This document shows, piece after piece, positions 1 through 29,724 of a stretch of DNA of 30,508 nt. The notes under the pieces were generated by a model that saw only the letters and a list, made by a program, of their open reading frames with translations, searched no databases and had not been told where the DNA came from. The stretch comes from a virus, in IMG/VR virus record IMGVR_UViG_3300006802_000343, positions 1 to 30,508 of that record; one strand, written 5' to 3'. The position numbers and the translations under genes are program-made. Position 1 is the stretch's first letter, and every line of letters begins with the position of its first letter.

Positions 1-1
1 A

Positions 2-1137: not shown

Positions 1138-1183
1138 GTAAAATTAATCCTGACCACATCGAAAATCACAGAAACGGTAATTA

Positions 1184-3950: not shown

Positions 3951-4760
3951 ATGGACGAAGGAACTAGCGTACAGCCTGAGGATAACGGCCAAGGCGTAGA
4001 GACTTCACAAGAATCTAGCCCATTAGATGAATTATATGATTTATCTGGTGTGCCAGATGAACAGAGGCCACATATTGAGCCAATCCTCCAAGATGTTCAG
4101 CGGAATGTAAATTCTAAGTTTGAGCAGGCGGCGGATTATCGTAAACAATGGGAACCATATGAGGAATTAGGGGTAAATGAAGTAGACCCCGCCTTAATGG
4201 AGGAATTGCTTGCGATTGCTGAAATTGCTGACGATGAAGAAGCCCTACGAGAGTGGTGGCAAGGATTAGGTAGCGAAAGAGGTTGGGCAGAGAACAATTT
4301 GGATTCAGAAGAAGATGATTTTGACTTTGATGATGATAATGAGTTTTCTACCGCTGACCTTAAGCAGTTACAAGAATCTATCGAACAAGCAATAGAAGCA
4401 AAAACGGCACCATTATTTGAGAAAGAGAGAGAAAGGGAGCAGGAGCGTTTATTGGCAGAAGCCGATAGAGAGATTTCTACAAAACTTTCTCAACTTAAAG
4501 AAGAATATGGAGAGTTTGACGAGCAGGCAGTTTGTAAGTTGGCTCTTTCCTATGATGATGAAGATGCGATAGAAAAGGGTTTTGAGGATTACAAGAATCT
4601 GATAAAATCGGCGCAAGATGGTGTATTTGAGTCTAAAAGTGATGCTCCGGCACCACCAGAAGGCTCCGGCGTTGCTGACACTACTCCTGCGAATATCACA
4701 TCATTTTCAGACGCAAAATTGGCCGCTGTGGAACGAATTAAAGCAAACAATCAACAGTAA
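3951..4760 (+). CDS. Capsid scaffolding protein
   Basis: 269 residues, ATG at 3951. Scaffolds guide capsid protein into a procapsid and then leave or are degraded. Sequence features fit: highly acidic, helical and coiled-coil, without enzyme motifs. DVQRNVNSKFEQAADYRKQW near residues 48-67 is the kind of segment seen in tailed-phage scaffolds, an aspartate-rich stretch lies near 120-132, a long glutamate/arginine/lysine helix spans about 140-200, and the C-terminus has a short conserved-looking helix (FSDAKLAAVERIKANN), often the capsid-binding end. It lies 12 bases before the major capsid gene. Confidence rests on composition and position. Confidence 0.8.
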   Translation: MDEGTSVQPEDNGQGVETSQESSPLDELYDLSGVPDEQRPHIEPILQDVQRNVNSKFEQAADYRKQWEPYEELGVNEVDPALMEELLAIAEIADDEEALREWWQGLGSERGWAENNLDSEEDDFDFDDDNEFSTADLKQLQESIEQAIEAKTAPLFEKEREREQERLLAEADREISTKLSQLKEEYGEFDEQAVCKLALSYDDEDAIEKGFEDYKNLIKSAQDGVFESKSDAPAPPEGSGVADTTPANITSFSDAKLAAVERIKANNQQ

Positions 4761-4772
4761 AGGTAATTTACA

Positions 4773-6011: not shown

Positions 6012-6032
6012 TTAGTAAACTAGTGTAAGATT

Positions 6033-6067
6033 AGGGGGGGTTTAGGAAATACCTAGCCCCCCCTTTT
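6033..6067 (+). terminator. Intrinsic terminator after major capsid gene
   Basis: Seven G (6034-6040) pair with seven C (6057-6063); inside, TAGG (6043-6046) pairs with CCTA (6052-6055) around an AAATA loop. TTTT follows at 6064-6067. Placed 22 bases after the capsid stop and before the next gene, it fits a partial or full stop that raises capsid transcript level relative to tail genes. Confidence 0.85.
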
Positions 6068-6076
6068 CTACTTAAT

Positions 6077-6475
6077 ATGGAAATAAAACCAGCGACAATT
6101 GACCAAATCATTAAAGGCCGCAACGGTAAGCGTGTGGTCATTACTAATGATGTTGGAGATGTTGCTCGCCAGATTAAAGAAGTAAGTCCTGACTTAGAAC
6201 TACATTATAATGAAACGGCACAATATTTTGTAGTCGTACAAAAGCATGAAAATGGAGAACATTTAGTTACTACGGCGCAAGAACTAGATGGTAGTATTGT
6301 GGAGCGTGTGAAACAAATAACAAACCCACAGTATAATTTTGATATAGAAGCGGCTAAAATAGAAAAGGCTGAAAAAGAGGCTATGGAGAAACGACGCAAA
6401 GAGCATATTGGTGAAGTAGGTGAACGCCTAGCGCATGGTTTTCGTAAAGACCTTAACATTAAGAAGAACTTTTGA
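6077..6475 (+). CDS. Unknown protein, first gene after the capsid terminator
   Basis: 132 residues, ATG at 6077, just past the terminator. The N-terminal half is a small alpha/beta region (KRVVITNDVGDVARQIKEV); the second half is highly charged, with lysine/glutamate repeats around residues 93-115 that look like a long helix, ending in a basic tail. No membrane segment or enzyme motif is seen. Genes here in podophages often encode head completion or connector accessory proteins, but I do not recognise this one. Its TGA overlaps the TTG start of the next gene. Confidence 0.7.
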   Translation: MEIKPATIDQIIKGRNGKRVVITNDVGDVARQIKEVSPDLELHYNETAQYFVVVQKHENGEHLVTTAQELDGSIVERVKQITNPQYNFDIEAAKIEKAEKEAMEKRRKEHIGEVGERLAHGFRKDLNIKKNF

Positions 6476-7098
6476 GTACGCTACTAGAAATAACAAATAA
6501 AGTTTTGTCTTACGGATTTTCGTCTGCTCGCTACTTAGACGATGTTCAGGACTGGATTAATGAAGCGCAGGGATACATTGTTAGACAGGCAAACATTCCT
6601 GCTGCTAATACCGTACACACTTTTAGTGTAAGTTTAGGGGATAATTCTTATACTTTGCCTTCTGATTTCGCAAGAATTATAGATGTATATGTAGAAAACG
6701 AAGAAGATGTATTAGAAGAAATTTCTATTAATGATTTTGATGGCCTTGACCCTGACGATAGAGGTACGCCAATTGTTTATATTGTTATTGGAAATGTAAT
6801 GTATTTTGCGCCTACGCCTGATAACACATATACAATTAAAATGCGTTACTACAAACTTCCAGCAACTATGGACGCTAATGATACACCAGAAATACCCGAG
6901 CAATACCAATACTTGTTAGAAACATATGCGTTACATAAAGCATTTCGCAGAGAGTCCGACTTTGAGGCATCACAGTTTTATCGCAATCAGTTTTTCGAAG
7001 ATTTAGCACGACTCAAAGGAGAACTACATAGAAATACGAGAGCCGTACCCGGACAAGTTAAAGGTACATGGCATGGATTTCCACCTTATTACGAATGA
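6472..7098 (+). CDS. Head-tail adaptor protein (podophage type)
   Basis: 208 residues from TTG at 6472, overlapping the previous stop. Adaptors sit below the portal ring and join it to the tail hub. The sequence matches the common podophage adaptor layout: an N-terminal helix with INEAQGYIVRQANIP, a beta segment with YTLPSDFARIIDVYV, an Asp/Gly/Pro turn (DRGTPIVYIV), MYFAPTPDNTYTIKMRYYKLP, then TPEIPEQYQYLLETYALHKAF and a long C-terminal helix. The order adaptor then hub is standard. The end overlaps the next gene as ATGA. Confidence 0.75.
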   Translation: MSTLLEITNKVLSYGFSSARYLDDVQDWINEAQGYIVRQANIPAANTVHTFSVSLGDNSYTLPSDFARIIDVYVENEEDVLEEISINDFDGLDPDDRGTPIVYIVIGNVMYFAPTPDNTYTIKMRYYKLPATMDANDTPEIPEQYQYLLETYALHKAFRRESDFEASQFYRNQFFEDLARLKGELHRNTRAVPGQVKGTWHGFPPYYE

Positions 7099-8603
7099 GG
7101 GGCCGTCCATACATATTTAGTAATTTGGGGCGCGGTATTAATTTAGAAGCCGCGCCTTATGCTATTTCAGAAGGTCAAGCCCGTAATGGTCGTAATTTTC
7201 ATACCTCTCCTGTAGGCACTATTACTAAGCGTAACGGTTGCGTTACACATTCTACCCCGGACGCTGCTTTAACTTCCTTATTTCCACTACACACTTCTAC
7301 GCGTTATTTAATAGGAGCAGGAAGCACAAAACTTTATAAAATTGCTACAGATGGAACCGTAAGCGATTTAAAAACAAGTTTGACTAATAATAAACGATGG
7401 GAATTTGTACAGGCTCCAACTAGCGGTGGGCAAGGGCCGCTGTGGGGTTTAAACGGGACAGACACGCCGCAACAATGGGACGGTAGTGCTGCTACTTCTA
7501 GTAACTGGACTGCGGCATCGGGTACTTTACCCAATGGAAAATATATTGCTTATCATAACAACAGGATTGCGATTGCTGGTACTTCTAGTAATCCTTCTCG
7601 TTTATATTTATCAGCATTAGTAGACCCTGCTGGTTCAGTAGATGGTGCGCGTAATTGGTCTACGCCTGATGCTGTCACTATTGATTTTGACCCTAATGAT
7701 GGACAAGAAATTACGGCAATTGGCAAAGTTGGCCCATATCTACTTGTTTTTAAGCCACGCAAAACCTTTCTTGTTACTGATACTGACAATGGAAGTTATC
7801 GTGTGCTTAATTCAGAAGTTGGTTGTAGCGCAAACAGAACGGTTACAGAGACTTCGAACGGCACTTACTTTTTAAGCACAGAAGGTGCTGTATATGTAAC
7901 AAATGGTACTACTATGACTGATATAAGTGGAGATATTCGCCCTGTCTTAGCCGCCATACCCGGAACATCGGTGTCTTACGCTTGCGGAATTTTTTATGAC
8001 CAAAAGTATTATTTAAGTATTCCTCAAAGCGGTAACACTTGTGAACTTATTTGTGAGTTTGATTTAGCAACTAATACTTGGTGGCTTCACGCAATTCAGT
8101 TTACTTCGTCTATTGTAGGGGCTGTAACGCAATTTGCCATATTAGAACCTAGTGGAAGCAACATATTATATGGAGCATTAGATGGCACCGCTAAAGTCGC
8201 AGAAATGTTTAAGAACGCAACATTCCAAGATTTTGATAATAATTATGTTGCTTATTGGAATGGCCCTTGGTTATCATTTGGTATGCCCCATCTCCGCAAA
8301 AATCTTAGAGAAATTCGCGTAGATGGATTAGGTCAATTTGATGTTTATACACAAAATAGTTTTTCGACTACAGAATCAGCACAAGAGACTACATTTTGGG
8401 AAGTAGCAACAGAAGGTACTACTTTTGGCGGTACAGGAGACTTTGGCGGCACAGGGACTTATGGAGATTCAGCAACTATTACCGAACGCAGATATTACAC
8501 CCCCGGAGTAGGTCGCGTGTGGAGTGTTCAGTTTAAAAGTACCAACAACGAAGATTGTCAAATTTACTCATATACTTTAGCACTAGATACAAGGAGAGAT
8601 TAA
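7095..8603 (+). CDS. Tail hub / nozzle-like structural protein
   Basis: 502 residues from ATG 7095, chosen because it makes an ATGA overlap with the adaptor stop; an in-frame ATG at 7068 would overlap the adaptor by 31 bases. It begins RGRPYIFSNLGRGINLEAAP, passes into VGTITKRNGCVTH, and continues with repeated beta-strand units containing W, G and D (QQWDGSAAT, LVFKPRKTFLVTDTDNG, CEFDLATNTWWLH). This is the pattern of beta-propeller hub proteins such as P22 gp10, which extend the tail below the adaptor. The family match is by pattern and order only. Confidence 0.6.
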   Translation: MRGRPYIFSNLGRGINLEAAPYAISEGQARNGRNFHTSPVGTITKRNGCVTHSTPDAALTSLFPLHTSTRYLIGAGSTKLYKIATDGTVSDLKTSLTNNKRWEFVQAPTSGGQGPLWGLNGTDTPQQWDGSAATSSNWTAASGTLPNGKYIAYHNNRIAIAGTSSNPSRLYLSALVDPAGSVDGARNWSTPDAVTIDFDPNDGQEITAIGKVGPYLLVFKPRKTFLVTDTDNGSYRVLNSEVGCSANRTVTETSNGTYFLSTEGAVYVTNGTTMTDISGDIRPVLAAIPGTSVSYACGIFYDQKYYLSIPQSGNTCELICEFDLATNTWWLHAIQFTSSIVGAVTQFAILEPSGSNILYGALDGTAKVAEMFKNATFQDFDNNYVAYWNGPWLSFGMPHLRKNLREIRVDGLGQFDVYTQNSFSTTESAQETTFWEVATEGTTFGGTGDFGGTGTYGDSATITERRYYTPGVGRVWSVQFKSTNNEDCQIYSYTLALDTRRD

Positions 8604-9521
8604 GTGGGAACTATTAACCCCTCAATACCAACAGTAGGTCAACCAAACTCTACAGAAGATGTAGATATTCGTGATGGTATGACTACTATTCGTGATGAGA
8701 TTAACGGAAATCTTGATAACGCTAACATTAAAAATGCCGCAAATATTGCCGGTTCTAAGTTAGCAGATAACTCTGTTGCGCCAAGCAAATTAACTAATGG
8801 CACCGCAGGCCAGTTGCTTATTGCTAATGCTTCTGGAATAGTTACTTCTACAACCGTTACTGGTGATGTAACGATTAACAGTTCTGGCGTAACTGAAATT
8901 GGCGCAGGCGTAGTTGGCACTACTGAAATAGCCGACGATTCTATTAATCACGATAAAATGACTAATAACTCAGTCAATACAGACGAGTTACATAACAGCG
9001 CCGTAACTACAGCCAAAATTGCTGATGATGCGGTAACTGCTGATAAAATCGCAGATAACGCGGTTGTAACTGCTGGTATTTCTGATAATACAATTACTGC
9101 TGCTAAAATTAAAGCAGATGCGTGGACTTCTTATACTCCAACTTGGACTGCTCTTTCCACTAATCCAACTCTAGGAAATGGTACTCTTACTGGTTATTAT
9201 ATCCAATTAGGTAAAACTGTATTTTTTAGAATACAATTAGCGTTTGGTTCTACTACTACGGCTGGTAATGGCAATTGGTCATTGACCCTTCCGACAACTC
9301 AAAATCACCCTAATTTATCTCCTATTGGTAATGTGATGGTTTCTGATGCTAGTACAGCAACCTATTCATTTGGTACTGCTGTAACTACAATTAGTGCTTT
9401 AGGTGGTGGAGCAGATAAATTTATTTCTTATGTTGGTAGTAATCCAATTGGTACTGGTAGCCCTTGGGCTTGGGCAACTGGTGATTCTTATAGTATTACT
9501 GGTACTTATGAGGCCGCATAG
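8604..9521 (+). CDS. Tail fibre protein with hydrophobic-heptad repeats
   Basis: 305 residues, GTG start directly after the previous stop. Residues about 45-172 are built of repeated units such as ITAAKIKADA, VTADKIADNA and VNTDELHNSA, which in phage fibres form a long trimeric shaft. The C-terminal part (about 173-305) starts WTSYTPTWT and contains NPTLGNGTLTGYYIQLGKTV, a beta-rich tip module found on many fibre proteins and presumed to bind the host surface. Its stop overlaps the next GTG start. Confidence 0.75.
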   Translation: MGTINPSIPTVGQPNSTEDVDIRDGMTTIRDEINGNLDNANIKNAANIAGSKLADNSVAPSKLTNGTAGQLLIANASGIVTSTTVTGDVTINSSGVTEIGAGVVGTTEIADDSINHDKMTNNSVNTDELHNSAVTTAKIADDAVTADKIADNAVVTAGISDNTITAAKIKADAWTSYTPTWTALSTNPTLGNGTLTGYYIQLGKTVFFRIQLAFGSTTTAGNGNWSLTLPTTQNHPNLSPIGNVMVSDASTATYSFGTAVTTISALGGGADKFISYVGSNPIGTGSPWAWATGDSYSITGTYEAA

Positions 9522-9859
9522 TGCCAATTAAAGACCCAAAAGGCGGATTGACAGCAGAAGGACGCGCTTATTTTAAGCGTAAAGAAGGTGCTAATTTAAA
9601 ACCCGGTGTAAAGAACTATTCTAGTGCGAGTTTTGCTGACAAAAAACGATGGGCTAATTGGGCTACTAGGTTTGCTGGTCGCTCCGATATACCGCCTCTT
9701 AAAAAGCCGAATGGAGAACCCACACGCTTTGCGCTTATGTTTAGGGCGTGGGGTGAACCTGTACCTACATCTGTATCAGCAGTTAAATCTGTGGCTAGAA
9801 AAGCACAAGCACGAAAGCAAACTTTGAGAGATAAAACTAATGGCAATAGTAACACCTAA
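9521..9859 (+). CDS. DUF6321-like phage protein
   Basis: 112 residues from GTG 9521 (overlapping the preceding stop). The order [68 protein letters not shown] and a basic C-terminal helix matches, from memory, the small DUF6321-type proteins of cyanophages and other environmental phages. Function is not established; the basic composition and neighbours suggest a minor virion or DNA-associated role. It overlaps the next gene by 20 bases in another frame. Confidence 0.65.
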
Positions 9860-11042
9860 TACTCCTGAGCAAATTGGTGAACTTTTATTAATAGAAGTAA
9901 ACGGTCGGCTAGATAGCGATAATTTTAGCCAAACAGTTTGGGATAAAATTAATGAATTAATTGCTGCTTCTGGTGGTAGTTATACAGTTTTAAATGGTGC
10001 TGGTGCGCCTAGCGCAGGTTTAGGTGCTGATGGTGATTTTTATATTGACACATCGGCAACCGCAATTTATGGGCCAAAGACCGCAGGTGCGTGGGGTTCT
10101 TCTACTAGCCTAATTGGGCCTACAGGACCTACGGGGGCAACGGGAGCGACAGGGGCTACTGGCGCTACGGGAGCAACAGGGGCTACGGGGGCTATTGGCC
10201 CTGCTGGTACTGATGGTAAAACAATTTTAAATGGTACTTCTAATCCTACTAGTGGGACAGGAGTAGATGGAGATTTTTATATTAACACTTCTACTAGCAC
10301 ATTATTTGGGCCAAAAGCATCTGGAACTTGGCCTGCTGGTGTATCGCTAATTGGACCTAGTGCGTCTGCTCCCACAGGCGCTATGTTACAGTATGCTGGT
10401 ACTACCGCTCCATCAGGTTATTTGTTATGTGATGGGTCTAGTGTATCTACAACAACTTATGCTGATTTATACGCTATTATAGGCTATACTTATGGTGGCT
10501 CTGGTTCATCGTTTATGCTTCCTGACCTTTGTGGTCGTGTGCCTATAGGTGCTGGTACTGGTGCTGGCCTTACAGCAAGAACCCTTGCTGCTACAGGAGG
10601 TGCGGAAACTCACGCATTATCTACCGCAGAATTAGCAAGCCACAATCACGGAACTACTAATACTTTGTCGGTCGCAAGTCATAATCACGGCGCAACTGGT
10701 TTAACATTTACAGGTACAGCAGGTACGACTGATGATGAATCTTCGCATACACACGGCGCTGGTAGTTATCTTACTCAGTTCCAAAGCGTTACAAATACAA
10801 CCGTAACTGGTTCTGCGGGACGCTTAGCAACTGGTACTGGTGTAAATAGGGCTGTATCTGGTACTTCTGGTGCTGGTTCTGCTCATAACCACTCATTTAC
10901 TCCTAGCGGTACATTAGGCGGTAATACTGGTGATTCAGCACCTTCTTTAACTGGTTCACTTTCTATTGATAATGCTGGTAGCGGAAACGCACACAATAAC
11001 ATTCAGCCGTTTCTTGTGCTAAACTATATAATTAAAACCTAG
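9840..11042 (+). CDS. Collagen-like tail collar fibre
   Basis: 400 residues, ATG 9840. Order: an N-terminal helical region; a beta module (about 50-90) ending SLIGP; a Gly-X-Y collagen-like stretch (93-122); a second copy of the beta module (about 126-170), also ending SLIGP; and a Tail_Collar-type domain from about 178 with [40 protein letters not shown] and histidine motifs (ASHNHG, SHTHG, AHNHS). The last lines up with collar and fibre tips of many phages, where histidines can hold metal. It probably works as a trimer in host attachment. The second module copy suggests internal duplication. Confidence 0.8.
10116..10206 (+). repeat. Collagen-like GAT-coding tandem repeat
   Basis: About ten 9-base units, mostly Gly-Ala-Thr, with Gly-Pro-Thr at the start and Gly-Pro-Ala at the end. 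Codons vary between units (ggggca, ggagcg, ggggct), so protein sequence rather than DNA is conserved. Repeat number can change by slippage and would alter fibre length. Confidence 0.85.
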
Positions 11043-11049
11043 GTGAAAA

Positions 11050-11865
11050 ATGGCAACTAACAACGACTCCCAAGCAGAACTAGCAGCAAAAATAGCAGAA
11101 AACAGGTCAAGCCCTACAGGGATAGCGGCTAATACTTTTTCTGTTAATCAAGACCCACAACCGCCTAACTCTGACCAAGGCGTAACTAATAATGCTAACT
11201 CACAGTCTAGTACTTCTGGTGGTGTAGACAATCAATCAATAACACCTAATAATAATTATAGTTCGAATAATAATCAAAATGAGCCATTTTCTTCTTACAT
11301 GCCAGAAACAGGTAAGCCTGACCCTAGGGACTCTCAGTATTGGCGAGATGTAATTCGTTTAAACTTTGACCGCAACACACAAGAAAACAATCTTAGGTTA
11401 CAGTCGGTTTACGCTCAAACTGATTTTGAGAAGGCTAACTCAGATTTAGGTAGGCAACAAATACGCGATAGATTAGCCACTAAGATAGCATCGTCTAAGA
11501 GCGGTAATTTATTTAGTTCTGTATCGCAAGAAAATCTTGGACAGTTAGAACAAGGTTATTTTAACCAGCGTTCTGATTTACAGCAAACATATCAGCGTGA
11601 AGAAGCATCTAGACAAGCCATTAGGGACGCGCTCGCACAGGGCTATACTATTGATGAAGCAGCCGCATTAGCAGCCGCGATTGATAGAAAAGCACAAGCC
11701 GAATTAGACCAACCAAGCCCATATCAAACACCTACTACTAATACTAATACCGCAGACACAGGGCCAAATTGGGATACACTTCTGAATCAAGCATTAAAAA
11801 ATCTATTTCCTAAACCTAAACCTAACAAAGGCAAGGGTAAGGGCAAAGGTAAAGGTAAAAAGTAA
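11050..11865 (+). CDS. Internal virion / structural protein, Asn-Gln rich
   Basis: 271 residues, ATG 11050, with AGGTG seven bases upstream. Residues 1-95 are low complexity, rich in N, S, Q and T; the middle (about 95-205) is helical with many Q, R and E (LRLQSVYAQTDFEKANSDLG); the end is an extreme basic tail (KPKPNKGKGKGKGKGKK). No signal peptide or enzyme motif. The low-complexity start and polybasic tail fit a virion protein that contacts DNA or is ejected with it; its place before larger internal proteins supports that. The stop overlaps the next ATG (TAATG). Confidence 0.65.
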   Translation: MATNNDSQAELAAKIAENRSSPTGIAANTFSVNQDPQPPNSDQGVTNNANSQSSTSGGVDNQSITPNNNYSSNNNQNEPFSSYMPETGKPDPRDSQYWRDVIRLNFDRNTQENNLRLQSVYAQTDFEKANSDLGRQQIRDRLATKIASSKSGNLFSSVSQENLGQLEQGYFNQRSDLQQTYQREEASRQAIRDALAQGYTIDEAAALAAAIDRKAQAELDQPSPYQTPTTNTNTADTGPNWDTLLNQALKNLFPKPKPNKGKGKGKGKGKK

Positions 11866-13013
11866 TGGCAAAAGATAAAAAAAATAAGAAAAAAATAAAT
11901 CCTGTATACAGTCCTTTAACCCAATTACAGGGTAAAACTTTGCGCCGTTTTGTTAAGGCTATTACTAATTTAGAATACAAACCTCAAGTAAATGCGGTTA
12001 ATCAGCAAATAGGTGCCTTAGATACGCAAAAACAAAATACTACCGCTAGTCTTGGCGCTTTAGGCACTCAGGCTACAGGTAATATTAGTTCATACTATCG
12101 TAGCCTTGCGGAAGCAGAAGCGGCTAACGCTGCGCGTCAACAAGAGTTAGCACAGCGTTCTCAACAGCAAACAGCATCTATGACTCAGCAAGCCGCTAAT
12201 GCGGTACAGCAAGCAGCACAAAACGCTAATGCGCAGTTAAGACAAGACTCTGGTGCTAGGGACGAATTACAGGCTATGGTTGCTGAACAACAGTCTAGAC
12301 AAGCCCGTGAAGCACAGGCTATCCAAGGTTCTAACACCGCTCAAAACACTAATTGGCAAGGTTTACAGCAAGCACTTGCCGCGTCAAATCAAACTAGGGG
12401 AAGTGAAAACTTAGTAAATACTCAGCGTCAAAGTATGAGTGATATTACTAAGGCTACTGCGGCTTTTAACGATGAAATCGCTGCTGCTATGGCTAGACGC
12501 GCAGGGCTTAAAGGTGAGGCTGCTGCTGCCTTTATTAAGAATCTTTATCAGGCGCGTGGTGCGGAGCGTGAATTTAATCTTGGAGTACGCGCACTTAAGT
12601 CTAAAAATGCGTATAACAAGACTCAAGTTAAATTACAAAAAATGCGTAATGCCCAGCAAGATGAAAACAACTCAGCGCAAATGTATATTGCCGACAGATA
12701 CAGTAGTGCTAAAGAATATGCTGCTGACCGCAACGCTGAAATTCAGGCACTTTATGGGCAGAAAAAAGATACTGACCGTTGGCGTGAAGCCTTTAGCCAT
12801 ATTCGCGGAGACTTTGGCTATGGTGGTAAAAATGCTCAAAAGGCTGCCTCGTCAAAAAGCAAGCGTCTTATTATTGACGGCTTAATTAAAAAGTACAGTT
12901 TTTCGTGGGGTGCGGCTAATAAGGCTTATAGCACTTGGCTTCGTAAATACAATAAAAAACGGGGCTATGGTAAAGGTGGAGCATTTGGCCCTGCCTCTGG
13001 TCGCCGTAGTTAA
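11865..13013 (+). CDS. Internal virion protein, Ala-Gln coiled coil with terminal GYGKGGAFG
   Basis: 382 residues, ATG overlapping the previous stop. A lysine-rich start (KDKKNKKKIN) precedes a long alanine/glutamine helix region (about 65-240), which resembles T7 gp14-like ejection proteins in composition. The C-terminal 17 residues contain GYGKGGAFG at 367-375, then PASGRRS. The same nonapeptide stands near the N-terminus of the next gene product and of the hydrolase at 18597. Probably packed inside the capsid and released at infection; function by composition and order only. Confidence 0.65.
   Translation: MAKDKKNKKKINPVYSPLTQLQGKTLRRFVKAITNLEYKPQVNAVNQQIGALDTQKQNTTASLGALGTQATGNISSYYRSLAEAEAANAARQQELAQRSQQQTASMTQQAANAVQQAAQNANAQLRQDSGARDELQAMVAEQQSRQAREAQAIQGSNTAQNTNWQGLQQALAASNQTRGSENLVNTQRQSMSDITKATAAFNDEIAAAMARRAGLKGEAAAAFIKNLYQARGAEREFNLGVRALKSKNAYNKTQVKLQKMRNAQQDENNSAQMYIADRYSSAKEYAADRNAEIQALYGQKKDTDRWREAFSHIRGDFGYGGKNAQKAASSKSKRLIIDGLIKKYSFSWGAANKAYSTWLRKYNKKRGYGKGGAFGPASGRRS
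12963..12989 (+). repeat. GYGKGGAFG module, copy 1 (C-terminal)
   Basis: Encodes GYGKGGAFG seven residues before the stop of the 382-residue protein. Codons differ from the other two copies at several third positions, so protein sequence is what has been kept. Confidence 0.85.
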
Positions 13014-13015
13014 TT

Positions 13016-16000
13016 ATGCCGGGGCCGACTTATGGTAAGCGGTTAGGTAAAAAAACTAATCGCAAACAGAAGAAATCAAGAAAAGCATTAGGCTATGGCA
13101 AGGGCGGTGCTTTTGGTGACGGTCGTCTTAGCACTCAACGCAGAAAAGAACGCTCAGGTAAGGGCGCATATAGTTATGTAGGAACTTACAAAGGTTCTGG
13201 TAAAGACGCTGCTAAAGGTGTATCAAAAGCCAAGAGACAGCGTAGGTCTGCTAAATCAATTTATAAAGCAACGCAATTAAAGCGTCAGCGTGATTTAGTA
13301 AGTGGTAAAAGTAGCCCTGCCCCAATTAGTAGCAGAGGCTATGAGGCTCGCTACGGAATAGATACAGAAAAAACAGAACGCAAAGAAATACAGCGTTATA
13401 AAAAAGAAAAAACATTAGTAGGTCGTGGTAAAAATTTACGCGCTATTTTAGGCCCAACTACTACGCCACAACAGTTAAGTTATAGGGCCAAGTTTGCTAA
13501 AGATATTAAAACTTACAAAATACGAGATGCTGAAATTACTCGTTTAGAAGATAGCGTAAAGTCTTATGACAAACTTATTAAAAAAGAAGAAGAACGCAAA
13601 AAAAATGTTATAACAGACAAAGAGTTAACAGACTATTTTGAGGCAGGTATATTTAGTTCTGCTCAAAATGTTCCCGAAGAAATTGTTAAGAATAAAAATG
13701 CTCGGCTTACTTATATTCGGGCTAGAAGGGCTGAGGATAGGGCTGAATTAGAACGACTACTTACTCGTCGCGCTCGCGGTAGAGTTACTAAATTTTCTCG
13801 TCGTTTAGTAGATGTTCCTAGGACTAACCCTGAAAAACAAAAAAGACTTTCTGAAAAAATTGACCGTTTTGAGAAAGAGGCTAAATGGCGTAGTAATACC
13901 AATAAACCTAGGTTAGAAAAAAAACGCGAAGAACGCCTAAAAGACGAAGCCCGTTTAAACCTTTCTAAGACGGTTGTTACCTACCGCAAGCGGCTTGACC
14001 AAGAACTTAGAGATTTCTTTGAGACTGCCATTAAGGTTTCTGATGGGAAAACAAAGCGCGACCTTATAGATGCCTATGGATTAATTAAGGTAAATAAACA
14101 CCCGTCTCCACCTACAGTATTAATGGCTGCCTCTAAAGCACTTAATGACAGCATTGGCGGTGGCATGAGGACTAACAAAGTTCATCCACTTGTTACAAAA
14201 TTAAATAAAACTACTAATGAATTAATAGGTTATGAAGAAGCGGCAAAAAGTTATGGATTAAATTTTGCTGAACAATTTTTATCATCGCCCGCACAAACTG
14301 GGCTTATTGCTATTGATTTAGTTTCTCTTGGTGGAGTTTTTAAAACACCTCTTAAAGCAGGAGGTAAATTAGCATTAAAACTTACAGGAGCAAGGGCATT
14401 GGGTCGTGGAGTAAGGGCGGTAAGTAAGGCCACCGCTAGAGGCGTTAAGAATAGGTCTGAAAGACTAGCAATTCGAGAAGGTTTGGCAAAATCTGGTTTA
14501 TCTGGTCGTCGTGGCGGAAAAGTTAAGTCTGAGGTTGGTAAAACAAATAAAATTGTAGACCCAGATAAGATTACTCCTAAGGCTACTGGTCAAGCCGCTG
14601 CTAAAAATGAAAAGGTCGCAGATGAGATTATTCGGTCTGCTGCTACCGACGATATAAAGACTGCTGCTGACGCTGCTATAGATGCTCAACGCGCAGGTAA
14701 AATGGGAAATATTTCTGATGAACTTGCCAATAAAATAGATGAACTTGCTAAATACCAAGATGAAGTCGCAAGGCGTGTTAGCGAAAATCCACGCGCTGCT
14801 GGCGCTATGAGTCGTAAGTTAAATCGTTTACGCGAAGATTTAGCAACACAATTACTTAAAGAAGAACAGTTTGCTCGTAGAGGCTTACAGGCTCCTTTAA
14901 AAAATACTCGTTACATGCTAGATGAGGCGGGGGCATTAAGTCAAACAAGTCTTAAGCGTCTTGGTGCTCGCTACAAGTGGCCTTTAAGACTTGGCGTATC
15001 TGGCGTAATTACTAGTGCTTCTGTAGACGAAGTGGTTACTGGCGGAGAAATTACTAATAACTTTTTAATAAACGCTAAGGATTTAGCATCATCTGTGCCG
15101 TATGCCTTGGTAGAGACAGGCAAGATGGTAGGAGATGTTGTTTTAAACCAAGACACTGACCGTGTTTCGGCGTTTTGGGATTATATGGTAAATCACGATG
15201 CTGTTTTTTTGGCTTTCCAAGGTAGGTGGGACGAAGCAAAAAAATCTGCTAAAGAACGACCATTAGATGCGTTATTAATGATTGGTGGTGTTTATGGCGC
15301 GGTAGGTAGAGGCATTGGCACAGCGGCAAGAGGTGCTGGAAGGTTTGCGCGTGTTGATTATACAAAATTACCAGATGGTAATTATAGGCTTGCTGACGGT
15401 ACAATTAGTAATAAAAAACCTGAACGCGGCTATAACGCTACGCGAAATCCAGAAGAATTAAAAGACCAACTTAATCAAGCAAAAAGCACTACTAGTAGAA
15501 ACTTAATGAGAATTGGTCATGTTGGCTCGCAATTACGCCGTCCTTTACCACTAGTTTTTGATGATAGTCCTCAATTAATTAATAGAAGGCTATCACCTAA
15601 CATTATAACCGCACAAGCACAAAAGTTTGTTGATAACCGCAGTTTAGCCAAAATTAAGGCTATCCAAGCAAAGGCTGATGACGGTATTTCGCTTACAAAA
15701 CAAGAAGAAAAGAAGTTACTTGCTCATCAACTAGAAGTTGAGAATAATGCTAACGCATTATACAGGGATTTAATAGACCATACTTGGGCTAGGCTAAACT
15801 TAACCAATAGAGCAGAAGTGTCTAAAATTGAGTCGGCAATTAACGATATTGCCAATGACCTTACAAAATCACCTGCTAGGGGAGGGCTAGGTAAAGATGC
15901 TCATTTAGCACTTAGACCACTTGCTTCTGGTGAGTTTGGCGGGCCAGCCCAAGTAGTTGCTAATTTAGAAAAAGCACTTGCTGATGTAAAAAAATGGCGT

Positions 16001-16351
16001 AAGAATTGGCTTAAAAAAGAATCTTACAATCAAAGTAGTCCATTTTATCGTGCTGCTGGCGAAACACAAAAATTGTTTGAGAAATTACTAGAAAAACCTG
16101 AGATATTAACTGACCCTAAAATGTGGGAAGCAGTTAATAAGTTAGGTGATGTAATTAATCCACTAGAGGACGCCCTTGTAAGACAGGGATTGTTATTACC
16201 TCAACAGCGTGATTTTGCTCCGTTAGTTCCTTATGCCGTTCGTGTTATGGGCGCTAAATCTATTAAGGCTAAGAATGGTCAGATTCGTTTTTATATAGAT
16301 AAAAATCTGCTAAAAGCGCGACGGGTGAAATGGGCGAAAGAAATTTCTTAA
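13016..16351 (+). CDS. Very large internal virion protein, N-terminal portion
   Basis: 1111 residues, ATG 13016, two bases after the previous stop. The first 70 residues are strongly basic and hold the shared module (25-61). Long charged helices follow (about 130-310), then hydrophobic or amphipathic stretches near 425-460 (AQTGLIAIDLVSLGG), 660-690 and 755-785 (LLMIGGVYGAVGRGIG), and a soluble helical end. Size, basic start and patchy amphipathic helices resemble T7 gp16-type ejected proteins, which cross the cell envelope. No lytic motif is evident. It overlaps the next gene by 22 bases in the -1 frame, and the two may be halves of one protein. Confidence 0.65.
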   Translation: MPGPTYGKRLGKKTNRKQKKSRKALGYGKGGAFGDGRLSTQRRKERSGKGAYSYVGTYKGSGKDAAKGVSKAKRQRRSAKSIYKATQLKRQRDLVSGKSSPAPISSRGYEARYGIDTEKTERKEIQRYKKEKTLVGRGKNLRAILGPTTTPQQLSYRAKFAKDIKTYKIRDAEITRLEDSVKSYDKLIKKEEERKKNVITDKELTDYFEAGIFSSAQNVPEEIVKNKNARLTYIRARRAEDRAELERLLTRRARGRVTKFSRRLVDVPRTNPEKQKRLSEKIDRFEKEAKWRSNTNKPRLEKKREERLKDEARLNLSKTVVTYRKRLDQELRDFFETAIKVSDGKTKRDLIDAYGLIKVNKHPSPPTVLMAASKALNDSIGGGMRTNKVHPLVTKLNKTTNELIGYEEAAKSYGLNFAEQFLSSPAQTGLIAIDLVSLGGVFKTPLKAGGKLALKLTGARALGRGVRAVSKATARGVKNRSERLAIREGLAKSGLSGRRGGKVKSEVGKTNKIVDPDKITPKATGQAAAKNEKVADEIIRSAATDDIKTAADAAIDAQRAGKMGNISDELANKIDELAKYQDEVARRVSENPRAAGAMSRKLNRLREDLATQLLKEEQFARRGLQAPLKNTRYMLDEAGALSQTSLKRLGARYKWPLRLGVSGVITSASVDEVVTGGEITNNFLINAKDLASSVPYALVETGKMVGDVVLNQDTDRVSAFWDYMVNHDAVFLAFQGRWDEAKKSAKERPLDALLMIGGVYGAVGRGIGTAARGAGRFARVDYTKLPDGNYRLADGTISNKKPERGYNATRNPEELKDQLNQAKSTTSRNLMRIGHVGSQLRRPLPLVFDDSPQLINRRLSPNIITAQAQKFVDNRSLAKIKAIQAKADDGISLTKQEEKKLLAHQLEVENNANALYRDLIDHTWARLNLTNRAEVSKIESAINDIANDLTKSPARGGLGKDAHLALRPLASGEFGGPAQVVANLEKALADVKKWRKNWLKKESYNQSSPFYRAAGETQKLFEKLLEKPEILTDPKMWEAVNKLGDVINPLEDALVRQGLLLPQQRDFAPLVPYAVRVMGAKSIKAKNGQIRFYIDKNLLKARRVKWAKEIS
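13088..13198 (+). repeat. GYGKGGAFG module, copy 2 (N-terminal, extended)
   Basis: Encodes residues 25-61: LGYGKGGAFG, then a G-R-x-S-T-x-R-R-K-x-R-S-G segment and YxYVGTYKGS. This 37-residue pattern recurs at 18618-18728 with about three-quarters identity by eye. Confidence 0.85.
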
Positions 16352-18597
16352 CACCAGAAGATATACGCGCACACATGCGGGCTAATGGTTTTGAGAATGA
16401 CCCTATTTTCTTTTCTTCGCTACCAACAGTATTACCAGACAGCAATACAACTCACGCGGCTACATTAAACTCTCTTGGTAAAACATATAACGCTTCTACT
16501 GCCGGAGATTTAATTGCTCGCTTTGGTCACGATTTAAGTTTTGAGAATGTAAAACGAAGTGCTATTAGCGTTAAACTTAATCTTAACAAACAGAAAATAG
16601 AAGAATTTATTTTACAGAGAACTCTTGTCGGCGATACTAACGGCAAACTTTTTAAAACTGCCGCAGAAGCAGAAAAATTTTACCGAGATAATCCCGGTCG
16701 TTTCCCTGTAGAGATGGAACTGTGGGCCGTAGATGTTACAAGTGACGCAATTAAACTAGGCGAAACTATTAACAAAGCGAGTGACCTTGACCATACAAGC
16801 CCAATTATTACAGACTTAAATGAATACCTAAGAACTGATGCCGCAAATGTAGATTATTTAGGACTCCAACAGTCGCGCATGAAAGCGTTAAAAGATTTTA
16901 AAAACAGTAACAGCGAAGCAACTTATGGTGTGCGTGTTGGATTAATACCTAAGGCCGTCGCAAACCGACTTCGTTCTCACGCAAAAGTAGATAGTTTTAT
17001 TGCTGAAAATGGTGGGGGTAGGTTTTTTAACACTTTAACCCGTGAATTTAAAGCCTCGGTGTTGCCATTCTCAATTGCTTGGCATACAGGTAATATGGTA
17101 GATATGGCTTTGCGTATGTTATTTGATGGTGTAAATCCAATTGATTACGCAACTGGTTTAAAGTTAAGAAAATATCTTAAAGAAAACTACCCTGAGGTTT
17201 ACGACGCAGTATTAATCGAAATGGGAGGTGGACACTTAATTAGTGCTAAATCTTCATTGGTTCGTGGTAGTAGGAAAGATGGTGGGTTTTTCCAAGAAAA
17301 TAAGCCGATTGGGGCGTTAAGTTCTCCTAGGCCAAAACGATTTGGTTCATCCGCTAAATTACAACCTTATGAGCGTCGTATGTTAGATGCTAGTGAAAAG
17401 ATTTTATACCAGATTAGACCTGACCAGCAGTTATTTCGCAGATATAAAGATGCTGCTGAGTTTGGATTTAGATTTGGAGAGTTTATAGAAGAACGAGTAA
17501 GATTTGCTACCCTTGGTAAATATGGTCGTCAACAGTTAACTGACCTTGGAACTAGTTGGTTTAAACATGCCCGACTGACTAATGAAGCAATCGAAAAACT
17601 TGCTTTTAATTTAATGGACGAAAATCTATTAAAACAGGTTGCTAAGTCTACAAATAAAGTATTAGGTGATTATACAAATATGAGTCCAAGGTTACGCGGG
17701 CTTGTTAGGACTGTTGTGCCTTTCGGCTTATGGTTACGCGCTTCTGCTACTTGGCTTGTTACGCTTCCATATAACTATCCTGTTAAATCAGCATTTGTAG
17801 CAGGCATGGCAGGATTAACAGAAGAAGAACGCCGTTCATTTGGTTTGTCTGTATTTGGCAATAATGTTGTCCCTAATTATTTACTTGGCGCTATCCCTGC
17901 TTCGGCTTTACCTGATAAATTAATTCCGGGCAAGCAATATGAAATAGACCCTATTTCTGGTGAGCGTCAAGAAGTTTACTTAAGAACTTCTAACTATACT
18001 TCCTTTGGCCCTTATTACGATTTAGGAGATTTAGCAAATTTTGTTTTTCCTTGGTGGAACAGTTTATTTAATGTAGCGGCAAGTGGTATTGATTGGACAG
18101 GTAGTGTAATGCGTAAACCTAATGGTGAAAAATTAAGTGACAATGAAAGAGTTGGTTTGGCTCTTTACGGTTTAATGGAAACCTATTTTTATCCAATGAG
18201 TTATATTCATTCGCTACAATTAGGTGGTCGGCCTTCTACTACTTCTACTCCTTGGTCGCCACGCAGAGATTATCGTTTTTATGGGCCACAGAACACTCCG
18301 GGCGAAATTGTTATTTGGGAAAAATATTTTGGTAAGTCATGGGATTTAATTAATCCATCAAATCGTCAAGGACTTGGTGCTAGATTCTTTAACCCATTTA
18401 GAGGAATTCCTTACAAGCCAACTACTAAGCCTGAAAAAAATAGAGGTATAAGCAGTTATACAAGCAGGGCTTTGGGCAGCAGTAATTTACTTGGTCAAAC
18501 TAAAAAGCGTGTAAGCGGCAGAGAGTGGCGCTATATAGACCCTGAGCAAAACAAAAAAAGCAAGCAAAAAGACGACCCTTTTGATAATTATAGATAA
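16330..18597 (+). CDS. Large internal virion protein, possible continuation of the upstream gene
   Basis: 755 residues from ATG 16330, 22 bases inside the preceding gene. It begins MGERNFLTPEDIRAHMRANGFENDP, which reads like the middle of a domain rather than a start. Later come SVLPFSIAWHTGNMVDMALR (about 255) and a hydrophobic stretch near 465-530 (VRTVVPFGLWLRASATWLV, YLLGAIPASALPD), suggesting membrane interaction during ejection; the end is basic. Upstream, the frame has no good ribosome binding site. One added A in the run at 16334-16336 would fuse it to the upstream gene (about 1,865 residues). Either arrangement gives large ejected proteins. Confidence 0.65.
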   Translation: MGERNFLTPEDIRAHMRANGFENDPIFFSSLPTVLPDSNTTHAATLNSLGKTYNASTAGDLIARFGHDLSFENVKRSAISVKLNLNKQKIEEFILQRTLVGDTNGKLFKTAAEAEKFYRDNPGRFPVEMELWAVDVTSDAIKLGETINKASDLDHTSPIITDLNEYLRTDAANVDYLGLQQSRMKALKDFKNSNSEATYGVRVGLIPKAVANRLRSHAKVDSFIAENGGGRFFNTLTREFKASVLPFSIAWHTGNMVDMALRMLFDGVNPIDYATGLKLRKYLKENYPEVYDAVLIEMGGGHLISAKSSLVRGSRKDGGFFQENKPIGALSSPRPKRFGSSAKLQPYERRMLDASEKILYQIRPDQQLFRRYKDAAEFGFRFGEFIEERVRFATLGKYGRQQLTDLGTSWFKHARLTNEAIEKLAFNLMDENLLKQVAKSTNKVLGDYTNMSPRLRGLVRTVVPFGLWLRASATWLVTLPYNYPVKSAFVAGMAGLTEEERRSFGLSVFGNNVVPNYLLGAIPASALPDKLIPGKQYEIDPISGERQEVYLRTSNYTSFGPYYDLGDLANFVFPWWNSLFNVAASGIDWTGSVMRKPNGEKLSDNERVGLALYGLMETYFYPMSYIHSLQLGGRPSTTSTPWSPRRDYRFYGPQNTPGEIVIWEKYFGKSWDLINPSNRQGLGARFFNPFRGIPYKPTTKPEKNRGISSYTSRALGSSNLLGQTKKRVSGREWRYIDPEQNKKSKQKDDPFDNYR

Positions 18598-23575: not shown

Positions 23576-23647
23576 TGCCCTTGGTAGGATTCGAACCTAC
23601 AACCTTGGGATTAAAAGTCCCCTACTCTACCATTGAGTTACAAGGGC
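23576..23647 (-). tRNA. tRNA-Lys(UUU)
   Basis: Reads on the - strand as a full cloverleaf: 7-base acceptor GCCCTTG/CAAGGGC, D arm ACTC-AATGGTA-GAGT, anticodon arm with loop CTTTTAA (anticodon TTT), T arm GTAGG-TTCGAAT-CCTAC, discriminator A. The first anticodon-stem pair is a G-A mismatch. No CCA is encoded. It should read AAA and AAG codons, which are very frequent in the lysine-rich phage proteins here. It is transcribed after the recombination operon, at its end. Confidence 0.93.
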
Positions 23648-23776: not shown

Positions 23777-24022
23777 TTAAATGGCCGCAAATTCCGTATC
23801 TTCATCAGAAGGGAACTCAATATAGGCCATACTCACCGCAAGCAGGTGGTCATAGTCTCCACTAGTCGCTTGTTTCATGTATGACTCTACTACTTCTTCG
23901 TCATTACCTACTTGCCTTAGTCCCTGCGATACGCGACTCATAATAGCGAACGCATTACCATCTTCGCCTACCAATGGAACTTTTGGCTTAATTAAATTAT
24001 TTGGTACATCTATATTGCTCAT
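23777..24022 (-). CDS. Conserved small phage protein
   Basis: 81 residues, start at 24022. The core, VGEDGNAFAIMSRVSQGLRQ followed by YMKQATSGDYDHLLAVSMAYIE, belongs to a recurrent small protein of many unrelated tailed phages (GxDGNAF...ATSGDYDHLL) whose function has not been assigned. Helical, with an acidic C-terminus. It is the last protein of the - strand operon. Confidence 0.7.
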   Translation of the reverse strand: MSNIDVPNNLIKPKVPLVGEDGNAFAIMSRVSQGLRQVGNDEEVVESYMKQATSGDYDHLLAVSMAYIEFPSDEDTEFAAI

Positions 24023-26863: not shown

Positions 26864-26940
26864 TTGCTGTTTGCTCCTATTGCGATTGACAGTAAAATAA
26901 ATGACAGTATAAATACTCCTAGTATAATGTCATTTTCCAT
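26860..26940 (-). CDS. 26-residue membrane microprotein in recombination operon
   Basis: ATG at 26940 shares a base with the annealing protein stop (TAATG) and its TGA overlaps the next ATG (ATGA). GGAGG lies seven bases before its ATG. It encodes MENDIILGVFILSFILLSIA and a short GANSK end, a single hydrophobic helix. The exact fit between two genes and the strong ribosome binding site argue for real translation. Its role in a DNA-recombination operon is unclear. Confidence 0.6.
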   Translation of the reverse strand: MENDIILGVFILSFILLSIAIGANSK

Positions 26941-27485
26941 TATGCTACCTCCACTACGGGGCCAAATTTCTTAATGCCCTCATCTTCTAACCATTTCTTA
27001 TACTTAGTATTAAGTGCTTCTTCTGCTTCTGGTGTGAGATACGCAGGCTTACCTGCCTTATTCTTTTTAAGATATTGAGTATCACCTTTTGACTCTGGAA
27101 CCCAAGTCGTAGGCTGCGCGTATAGACTCACACCTATACCGAACTTAACTGCGGCTCGTTTAAACGCATCTGAGTACATGGCTTTCAGACCACCCATATC
27201 ATCATTGGCTTGTTTAGTGCCAATATCACACACTCTAAACAGACTATCATTAATAGTGGTAAGCAAGGTACATTGGATACCATGCTGGTCACCTAGGGTG
27301 ATGGGCGTATAACTATCCGACCAATAACCCGGCACTAAATGATTAAGCCGTTCAGAAACATGGCGAGCATCAATATAGTAAACTACTAGCGCCGAGTTAG
27401 CGGTCGTTACTTGTACCCTGCTAAGAACTACATCAGCAGGAAACGGCCTACGGCACTCATTAATAAATTCATTAAAATCTTTCAT
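26940..27485 (-). CDS. Rad52/22-like single-strand annealing protein
   Basis: 181 residues, ATG 27485 with AAAGGAG five bases upstream. The family hallmark is MYSDAFKRAAVKFGIGVSLY (103-122), after MGGLKA, preceded by a beta-rich part with GYWSDSYT and GIQCTLLTTI. Such proteins form rings that anneal complementary strands. A RecB-like nuclease, SSB and RusA in the same operon give a full strand-annealing recombination set. The C-terminal third is lysine-rich and may bind partners. It overlaps the regulator gene by 14 bases. Confidence 0.82.
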   Translation of the reverse strand: MKDFNEFINECRRPFPADVVLSRVQVTTANSALVVYYIDARHVSERLNHLVPGYWSDSYTPITLGDQHGIQCTLLTTINDSLFRVCDIGTKQANDDMGGLKAMYSDAFKRAAVKFGIGVSLYAQPTTWVPESKGDTQYLKKNKAGKPAYLTPEAEEALNTKYKKWLEDEGIKKFGPVVEVA

Positions 27486-27690
27486 TATACTCCTTTATAT
27501 CTATTTTCGCGTTTTCGTTTTCTAGGAACTTATAAAGCGCCTCCTCCACGATTGAGCGAAGGCTACGCCTATCTCTTAACTTCTTTAACTTAACGGCTTC
27601 CCACAGGTCTTTACGAACCCATATTGTATGAGGACTTGCGCCTTCTAACTCACCTTTAAGTTTTCCTTCTACTTCTTCTAGTGGTGTCAA
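27472..27690 (-). CDS. Ribbon-helix-helix (CopG/Arc-like) regulator
   Basis: 72 residues from TTG 27690, with a GGGGGTG ribosome binding site. The N-terminal third is acidic. Then HTIWVRKDLWEAVKLKKL forms the expected strand and first helix, and SLRSIVEEALYKFLE the second helix, of the ribbon-helix-helix fold. Such dimers bind short palindromes and often repress their own operon. A perfect palindrome lies 28 bases upstream of this gene. It is first in the recombination operon, so it probably controls it. Confidence 0.68.
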   Translation of the reverse strand: MTPLEEVEGKLKGELEGASPHTIWVRKDLWEAVKLKKLRDRRSLRSIVEEALYKFLENENAKIDIKEYNERF

Positions 27691-27717: not shown

Positions 27718-27736
27718 ATTGTTTACTATAAACAAT
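27718..27736. promoter_or_regulatory. Perfect palindrome, candidate operator
   Basis: ATTGTTTA-CTA-TAAACAAT: 8-base arms with a 3-base centre. It lies 28 bases before the regulator start. On the - strand a possible promoter overlaps it: TTGTTT inside the palindrome and TATACA 15 bases downstream. Binding of the ribbon-helix-helix protein here would block that promoter. Confidence 0.55.
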
Positions 27737-27769
27737 GTTATCACACTCCCCGGACGGAATAAATCCAAG

Positions 27770-27814
27770 AAAAGGAAAAGCGGGGCGACAAGTGATAAGA
27801 CTTGCCAACCCCGC
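27770..27814 (-). terminator. Intrinsic terminator of the small RNA/leader
   Basis: On the - strand GCGGGG (27814-27809) pairs with CCCCGC (27785-27780); inside, CAAG (27804-27801) pairs with CTTG (27792-27789). TTTTCCTTTT follows (27779-27770). The stem is G+C rich with an internal loop. Confidence 0.7.
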
Positions 27815-27863
27815 CAATCCCTAGGAGGATACTAATGAACAACGCAGCCCGTTTTACGGGACT
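27770..27863 (-). ncRNA. Candidate small RNA or attenuated leader
   Basis: Bounded by a good promoter and an intrinsic terminator, this - strand transcript would be about 94 nt. Expected parts: a 5' hairpin CCCGT-AAA-ACGGG (27847-27859), an unpaired linker containing TTCATTAGTATCCTCCTAGG, and the terminator hairpin. The linker is the exact complement of a model ribosome binding site and start codon (AGGAGG, six bases, ATG), so it could pair with mRNA start regions or even rRNA-like targets. Alternatively this is the leader of the recombination operon, with read-through under control. Ends are predicted only. Confidence 0.5.
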
Positions 27864-27876
27864 AGAACCATTGTAG
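27835..27876 (+). CDS. 13-codon mini-ORF with an ideal ribosome binding site
   Basis: AGGAGG at 27823-27828, a six-base spacer and ATG at 27835 give a near-perfect start; it encodes MNNAARFTGLEPL and stops TAG 27874-27876. It lies opposite the candidate small RNA and contains a CCCGT/ACGGG hairpin. No + strand promoter is clear. It may be a leader peptide, a decoy, or merely the complement of the small RNA. Confidence 0.25.
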   Translation: MNNAARFTGLEPL

Positions 27877-27899
27877 CATATGGCGCGGCGGTAAGTCAA
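27870..27899 (-). promoter_or_regulatory. Sigma70-type promoter
   Basis: On the - strand TTGACT (27899-27894), an 18-base spacer, and TACAAT (27875-27870), with TGC just before the -10. Each box matches five of six consensus bases. It overlaps the dnaB stop codon and points toward the small RNA and recombination operon. Confidence 0.65.
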
Positions 27900-29137
27900 C
27901 TTGTTACTTCTTCGAACCGCAGGTGCTTGTTATTAAACATCGCGTCTGCCTTTCCTAGCATACCGCTACGGGCCTTAGCGAGGTAGAGGGTGCTAGAAGG
28001 TTGCGGGTCGCCGCTGGTCGGGTCTTGCTCTCTATACACGAACATCACATTATCCGCGTCATTTTTTAACATACCCGACCCTCTAATATCTCTTGTTACA
28101 GGGCGTGGTCTAGTAATATCATTTACTCTACCCTCGTTGAGATGAACCGTCGCAATTACATGACAGTTAGCGGTTTTAGCAACACGATTTAATAGCCTAC
28201 TAATTCTTGCTAACTCTAATTCTGATTCATAATCGAACAGATGAAGAACATCTACGGCTACCACATCAAACTCTCTATTGCGAATATCGTAAGATAGTTC
28301 TTCTATGCTCCAACCAGCACAAGGCGTTATCGAAAAAGGCAAACCATCTTTAAGAGTCTTATCAATGCTAGCCTGTTCCTCTAAGGTAAGATTAGATGCC
28401 ATAATCTTATGAGTAGGAATACCCGTCTTTCGGGCGACTACCCTTACAACTCTTTCTTGATGACTCATTTCATTCATATAAAGATGAGTCCTTAAACCTT
28501 GGTCTGAAAATGCCTGTAAGAATTGGTCTACGACTACGCTTTTACCGTGACTAGTCCAACCTCCAACAATGGTCATTTGCTGGCGGCGAAATCCTCCACC
28601 TAAAACTTTATTGAGTTTGTTAAATGGTAACTTAAATACTTCTGCTTGGTCGCCTTTCAGATACTCCTTAAATTCTTCTGCTAGGCGTTTCGCGTCGTAA
28701 TAAGAGTCATTACTCGTAGCGGTATCTTGGTCAAGCGAACGAGCCTTTACATATCGCTCAAAGTCTCTAACTTTTACGGCTTCTATTGCCTCTAGCGAAG
28801 CACGACCCCTTACGCGCCATTTCTCTAATTCGATTAAACGCTTAGCAAAGTGCTTTATCGCACCAGACTCTTTCTTAGCAGCGTTTAATGTTCTAGCGTA
28901 ATCCGCTACCTCAGATGGTAGGTCAGAACATACAAGGTCTAGTGTAGCAGGTGTCCCTTGTTCATATAGGGCAAGCATACGATGATAAATTTTTCTGGTG
29001 CTATCGTAGAAAAAAGTATCTGGTTTAAGTTTAAAGTCTTGTAGGACAGCCCCTAGTTTATTGGGGTCATGGAATAGTGCGGCTATAAATGCTTCTTCCA
29101 CACCTTTATCTGCGCTTTCTGCTATGCTAGTATCCAA
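27896..29137 (-). CDS. DnaB-type replicative helicase
   Basis: 413 residues from TTG 29137 with AAGGAG six bases upstream. An N-terminal DnaB-like helical domain (about 10-105, VEEAFIAALFHDPNKLGAVL) is followed by a linker and the RecA-like motor (165-413): Walker A GWTSHGKS (193-200), catalytic E223 in YMNEMS, Walker B VVAVD (D296), HLNEG sensor, and RDIRGSGMLKNDADNVMFVY near the end. It unwinds DNA at the phage fork as a hexamer. It starts 11 bases from the divergent + gene. No primase domain is attached. Confidence 0.9.
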   Translation of the reverse strand: MDTSIAESADKGVEEAFIAALFHDPNKLGAVLQDFKLKPDTFFYDSTRKIYHRMLALYEQGTPATLDLVCSDLPSEVADYARTLNAAKKESGAIKHFAKRLIELEKWRVRGRASLEAIEAVKVRDFERYVKARSLDQDTATSNDSYYDAKRLAEEFKEYLKGDQAEVFKLPFNKLNKVLGGGFRRQQMTIVGGWTSHGKSVVVDQFLQAFSDQGLRTHLYMNEMSHQERVVRVVARKTGIPTHKIMASNLTLEEQASIDKTLKDGLPFSITPCAGWSIEELSYDIRNREFDVVAVDVLHLFDYESELELARISRLLNRVAKTANCHVIATVHLNEGRVNDITRPRPVTRDIRGSGMLKNDADNVMFVYREQDPTSGDPQPSSTLYLAKARSGMLGKADAMFNNKHLRFEEVTS

Positions 29138-29148
29138 TTTTTCTCCTT

Positions 29149-29724
29149 ATGACCGACAAGAAATTACCATCACTAAAAGCCAATGCTCAGACAGAAGTTG
29201 GCACTACTCTTAGAGACTTTTCTATCGAAGATGTAGAACTTGCCTTGCGTATGCTTGCTTATCACGGCACTAGTTACTCCAAGGTTTCTACTATTCTTGA
29301 CAAAGAATATCAACTTTCTGTACATTCTAATACTTTAAAGCGTTGGGCAACGGTTCAGTTTGCCAATAAATATGCTGCGATACAGCAGGAATTAGATACT
29401 CAGATTTCCAATAAATTGTCAGGTGAACTAACTGATATAGCCCTACAAGCAACGGACTTACAAAAAGAGGTAATAAATACTCTTTCACACAATTTAAGTG
29501 ACTTAGATACAAAAGACCTTTCCGTTACTGCTAAAAATTTATCGTCTGTTATTAATCCAGCAATTGAGAAAACTCAACTGCTTAGGGGTAAACCAACGCA
29601 ACGAACAGAATCTAAAGATGCTGAAAAAATTATTGCTAAACTTGCTGAGATGGGCTTAGTAAAAAACCCTGAAAAATTAGATATAGAAATTACTGATGCT
29701 GAAATTGTAGAAGAAGATGATTAG
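29149..29724 (+). CDS. HTH protein, possible terminase small subunit
   Basis: 191 residues, ATG 29149, 11 bases from the divergent helicase start. Residues about 25-70 form a helix-turn-helix (YSKVSTILDKEYQLSVHSNTLKRW); the middle (80-150) is helical and could oligomerise; the end is acidic (ITDAEIVEEDD). This layout fits small terminases, which recognise phage DNA and load the large subunit, but also other HTH regulators. It is a single + gene among - genes; if the genome circularises or continues beyond the window, its distance to terL is unknown. Confidence 0.5.
   Translation: MTDKKLPSLKANAQTEVGTTLRDFSIEDVELALRMLAYHGTSYSKVSTILDKEYQLSVHSNTLKRWATVQFANKYAAIQQELDTQISNKLSGELTDIALQATDLQKEVINTLSHNLSDLDTKDLSVTAKNLSSVINPAIEKTQLLRGKPTQRTESKDAEKIIAKLAEMGLVKNPEKLDIEITDAEIVEEDD

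Follow-up and report, generated by a model that had tools for sequence, protein, structure and literature searches.

A compact unit on the minus strand, flanked by the gene for a DnaB-like helicase and by a recombination operon, is made up of a promoter, a 5′ hairpin, an open linker complementary to ribosome binding sites and an intrinsic terminator. With moderate confidence, and on the basis of sequence and predicted folds, we read it as a stand-alone small RNA (sRNA) gene whose linker would pair with the starts of early phage genes and lower their translation. The unit belongs to a 30.5-kb virus record (IMG/VR IMGVR_UViG_3300006802_000343, positions 1–30,508) that was analyzed at its full length and is called the window below. 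The features discussed are listed in Table 1.

Table 1. Features of the RNA locus and of the genes considered with it (positions in the window)
Feature	Position	Strand	Basis or remark
Promoter TTGACT-18-TACAAT with TG extension	27870..27899	−	TTGACT 27899–27894, TG-C, TACAAT 27875–27870
Predicted RNA of about 94 nt	27770..27863	−	Ends inferred from promoter (start about 7 nt past the −10 box) and terminator (end in the T-run)
5′ hairpin CCCGTAAAACGGG	27848..27860	−	Sequence and folds
Single-stranded linker, proposed seed	27822..27844	−	Fold; complementarity tests
Intrinsic terminator, GGCGGGG...GCCCCGC stem and TTTTCCTTTT	27770..27815	−	Stem 27815–27780; TTTTCCTTTT 27779–27770
AGGAGG-6-ATG and 13-codon ORF MNNAARFTGLEPL (rival reading)	27823..27876	+	Sequence
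Perfect palindrome ATTGTTTA-nnn-TAAACAAT (ATTGTTTACTATAAACAAT)	27718..27736		Single copy; downstream of the terminator, upstream of the 72-aa gene
DnaB-like replicative helicase	27896..29137	−	phrog_19, E 1.5e-55; TIGR00665
72-aa ORF, gene 1 of the recombination operon	27472..27690	−	Ribbon-helix-helix-like by eye only
Erf/Rad52-like annealing protein	26940..27485	−	phrog_1097; PF04098
81-aa gene, last of the early genes; family without known function	23777..24022	−	phrog_1933, E 3e-21

The portal protein of the window is P22/SU10-like in a family search, with about 26% identity to Arthrobacter and Microbacterium phage portals; with several IMG/VR contigs, the identity reaches about 50%. Because of this resemblance, the window is likely to come from a phage of Actinobacteria. 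Late genes occupy the plus strand, while the helicase, Erf/Rad52, exonuclease, SSB, HNH and RusA genes lie on the minus strand; "early" and "late" are labels that follow from gene content and strand. A tRNA-Lys (TTT; 23576–23647, minus strand) closes the early operon. Family and structure searches gave no match for the 72-aa ORF, and its structure model is poor (mean pLDDT 56). At 29137–29149, the starts of the helicase gene (minus strand) and of a 191-aa gene (plus strand) are separated by 11 bp. The 191-aa gene is probably that of the small terminase subunit; in L135 and L140, its relatives are found upstream of the portal gene. Directly after the likely major capsid gene lies a very strong terminator (GGGGGGG...CCCCCCC TTTT; 6034–6072, plus strand). 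One IMG/VR contig (L143, IMGVR_UViG_3300007234_000141) is 99.86% identical to positions 1–17730 of the window, stops short of the RNA locus, and carries just upstream a gene that is likely to be the large terminase.

The −35 box of the promoter overlaps the helicase stop codon, and the unit therefore lies in the helicase 3′ UTR. By its match (10/12) plus the TG, this promoter is the best in the window; by chance, one as good should occur about 0.6 times in the whole window and about 0.0015 times per 150 nt of one strand, although promoter-like sites taken together are not enriched (9 found against 8.5 expected in shuffles). In a scan of the window, it was also the only one followed by a terminator-like hairpin within the next 250 nt. 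The terminator, with a stem of about −22 kcal/mol (−21.8), ranks within the top three hairpin/T-run sites of the window by strength. From these two elements we infer transcription and both ends of an RNA of about 94 nt, which is predicted to fold into the 5′ hairpin, an open linker and then the terminator. Its fold is 4 sd better than those of shuffled sequences, an advantage due chiefly to the terminator. At the sequence level, the element thus combines a promoter of its own with an intrinsic terminator, as an sRNA gene does, and it encodes no conserved protein, since the overlapping frame has neither a family nor a meaningful homolog. That frame is P-loop-like (GIGGVGKS, 33–52 aa; FISILLGIGGVGKS, 27741–27841, minus strand), lacks a ribosome site and gave hits only at E = 7; we took it as chance. 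A 12-nt match between the terminator 3′ arm and the ssb coding sequence, which lies inside the strong stem, was also taken as chance.

In the finished RNA, 21–24 nt are left between the two hairpins. Bases of this linker are mostly 0.9–1.0 unpaired (lowest 0.76), with lower values at 27822 and 27844. Within it, CATTAGTATCCTCCT (27837–27823, minus strand) is the exact complement of AGGAGG-6-ATG. The initial annotation had described a promoter, a 5′ hairpin, a linker that is the exact complement of AGGAGG-spacer-ATG and a terminator, and each of them was found where it had been placed on the minus strand. The pattern AGGAGG-N4-8-ATG has one copy in the window, on the plus strand at the RNA locus; 0.57 copies are expected per window (both strands) and about 0.0009 per 95-nt element.

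We then compared the pairing of the linker with the 13 early (minus-strand) starts, as called from our own ORFs, against several controls. The mean duplex energy, which leaves out RNA chaperones and cotranscriptional folding, is −13.2 kcal/mol. Composition shuffles of the linker reach −9.4 kcal/mol on average and shuffles keeping TCCTCCT −10.6 kcal/mol, and in neither set is any of the 400 as good. Native 23-mers of like composition give −9.1 kcal/mol (0.3% as good) and antisense sequences of random strong ribosome sites −9.9 kcal/mol (1.3% as good), while the reverse complements of real starts reach −11.1 kcal/mol at best (0/34 as good). Among 12,194 native 23-mers sampled window-wide, the linker ranks 14th (top ~0.1%), and several of those that outrank it are the literal antisense of the same early starts. 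Along the RNA, the signal peaks at the linker. As the linker was picked for its anti-ribosome-site look, these statistics are in part post hoc. The initial annotation had suggested checking the pairing of the linker with mRNA starts; on the phage starts, this gave the early excess but no excess over controls for the late (plus-strand) starts, and once the cost of opening is counted the early genes, taken together, lose their advantage over the late ones (Mann–Whitney P 0.25). The seed is accessible and complementary to early starts beyond chance, more weakly so when accessibility of the starts is included.

After accessibility, the best site is at the 81-aa gene (−14.6 kcal/mol versus −9.3 for the next), where both AGGA and AUG are paired with the linker. 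A site as good is obtained with 2% of core-kept shuffles, 2% of native 23-mers and 6% of mononucleotide shuffles (P about 0.02–0.06). At the TTG/UUG start of the helicase, GGATACTA is complementary to the linker with 8 exact pairs (GGAUACUA, just past the UU of UUG). This match has a P of 0.024 for the helicase alone and of 0.42 over all starts, for which a longest match of 8 bp is unremarkable; the start costs 9.3 kcal/mol to open, leaving a total of −6.6. The helicase start is a possible self target of the RNA, judging from this complementarity.

Relatives in which to follow the conservation of the unit, as the initial annotation had suggested, were sought at several levels, and the region itself had none in phages, IMG/VR or bacterial genomes. 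An Rfam covariance search returned the tRNA only, the RNA matching neither RoxS/RsaE nor any other family. No close relatives were obtained through the helicase, Erf, exonuclease or 72-aa proteins in IMG/VR, through the helicase in GTDB genomes, or through DNA in phages, and a degenerate hairpin–linker pattern had no match in IMG/VR. The portal relatives match neither the RNA region nor the helicase and Erf. Scanning their DNA gave no unit of like type with a promoter and a strong terminator, which is weak evidence since several are fragments and from high-G+C hosts.

Other readings of the locus were weighed against these data. On the plus strand, the reverse complement of the linker, AGGAGGATACTAATG, is a perfect ribosome site, and the same 15-mer starts an ORF of at least 40 aa in 111 of 120 loci in virus contigs. 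As this is a usual gene start there, the plus strand must be taken seriously: AGGAGG-6-ATG might start an ORF of 13 codons, or a leader peptide, within a long late-ward transcript, to which the minus-strand RNA would be a cis antisense. We consider this very unlikely. A strong plus-strand promoter-like site is present at 26901–26928, but no good one was found close upstream, the ORF has 13 codons only, and the linker does better on early starts than the reverse complements of all 34 other starts, a result not expected if the site were simply a gene start. The site at 26901–26928 is part of an overlapping divergent pair (26901–26933; plus ATGACA-16-TATAAT, 11/12; minus ATGACA-16-TATACT, 10/12), of which the minus site precedes the exonuclease start by 43 nt and the plus site would run antisense through erf.

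The two remaining readings concern the minus strand. The promoter at 27899 could drive the recombination operon from the 72-aa gene and erf onward, with the terminator acting as an attenuator and the linker covering the 72-aa ribosome site upon read-through. Strand and gene order agree with this, a search from 27870 to 27690 gave no further consensus promoter, and the read-through fold pairs the CCTCC region of the linker near AAGGGGGT of the 72-aa gene. The linker can also pair with the terminator 5′ arm before the 3′ arm exists. However, this weak early alternative reaches −14.6 against −37.8 for the finished fold, so that a stable antiterminator is not evident; moreover, the region has neither an Rfam riboswitch or leader match nor a leader peptide with a ribosome site. 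Downstream of the terminator, the palindrome, a possible operator of the next operon, and TGTATACA offer a possible place for a separate regulated promoter. An attenuated leader of this kind is a minor possibility, which we nonetheless take seriously; the initial annotation had named it, along with an antisense to the plus-strand mini-ORF, as an alternative. It is unlikely that the hairpin does no more than terminate the helicase operon, the promoter being fortuitous or of no importance and the linker an ordinary piece of 3′ UTR. A terminator is expected after the helicase stop in any case and promoter-like sites show no excess as a class, yet the best promoter of the window sits just upstream and only ~0.1% of native 23-mers pair as well as the linker with early starts.

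The preferred reading is thus a stand-alone sRNA gene in the helicase 3′ UTR, which would have its own promoter and share the helicase terminator. The RNA would hold its linker single-stranded between the two hairpins, and the linker would pair with early phage mRNAs around their Shine–Dalgarno sequences and start codons, with the 81-aa gene as the best candidate target and possibly the helicase, exonuclease and RusA genes. Such pairing may lower early-gene translation and act as a brake or feedback on the replication and recombination genes. The initial annotation had proposed a trans-acting RNA that blocks translation starts: sequence statistics favor a discrete promoter–terminator unit with an exposed anti-start linker, and the linker suits early starts better than arbitrary anti-ribosome-site sequences do, while transcription, action in trans, pairing in the cell, the direction of regulation and the targets are predictions. 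We regard as rather improbable the broader idea that one generic anti-start linker brakes many targets throughout the early operon by blocking their translation starts, leaves late genes alone and so aids the early-to-late switch. To our knowledge, targets are known for few sRNAs of Actinobacteria phages. Should the RNA be made and act as a brake on early genes, phage replication and recombination genes would provide a compact and testable example of control by RNA, and the succession of promoter, hairpin, anti-start linker and terminator would be a simple layout for finding others.

Several known RNAs resemble the predicted one. Those of the MicX type are 3′ UTR sRNAs with their own promoter (PMC9438474), and OppZ and CarZ of Vibrio are autoregulatory RNase E products working with Hfq (PMC7398697). 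Like them, the phage element would be an RNA gene at an mRNA end with a terminator common to both and possible pairing with starts of its own operon; for an OppZ-type start in the parental operon, the helicase UUG would be the candidate (8 bp, P 0.024; −6.6 kcal/mol after opening at 9.3). Unlike the Hfq-dependent OppZ and CarZ, it has its own predicted promoter and is known from sequence alone. RoxS, FsrA and CsfG of Bacillus (RsaE group) use a C-rich stretch to pair with mRNAs, including Shine–Dalgarno regions (PMC8216469). An exposed C-rich stretch is predicted here as well, for the same use, whereas they are host genes to which the phage RNA has no sequence or Rfam match.

Among phage RNAs, the antisense RNAs c4 (P1/P7), sar (P22), and OOP and PreS (lambda) are also short, and several of them block a ribosome site or start (PMC12197685). 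In contrast to c4, sar and OOP, which have one known partner gene each, the present RNA has predicted targets only and is unrelated in sequence. The D29 63–64 intergenic RNA (PMC5712189) and the Rhodococcus phage WC1 RNAs (PMC10986025) are, like ours, intergenic RNAs in Actinobacteria phages; according to the accessible parts of these reports, they were detected by RNA-seq, have no known function and are not described as having an anti-start linker, while the RNA here is predicted. In cluster K mycobacteriophages, start-associated sequences are 13-bp repeats found at many starts (PMC3203893). They likewise suggest that a shared RNA or protein factor may read starts, but exist in many copies, whereas the linker sequence is single in the window. 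Set beside these systems, the predicted RNA would be a fresh case, unrelated in sequence, of an already known type of RNA.
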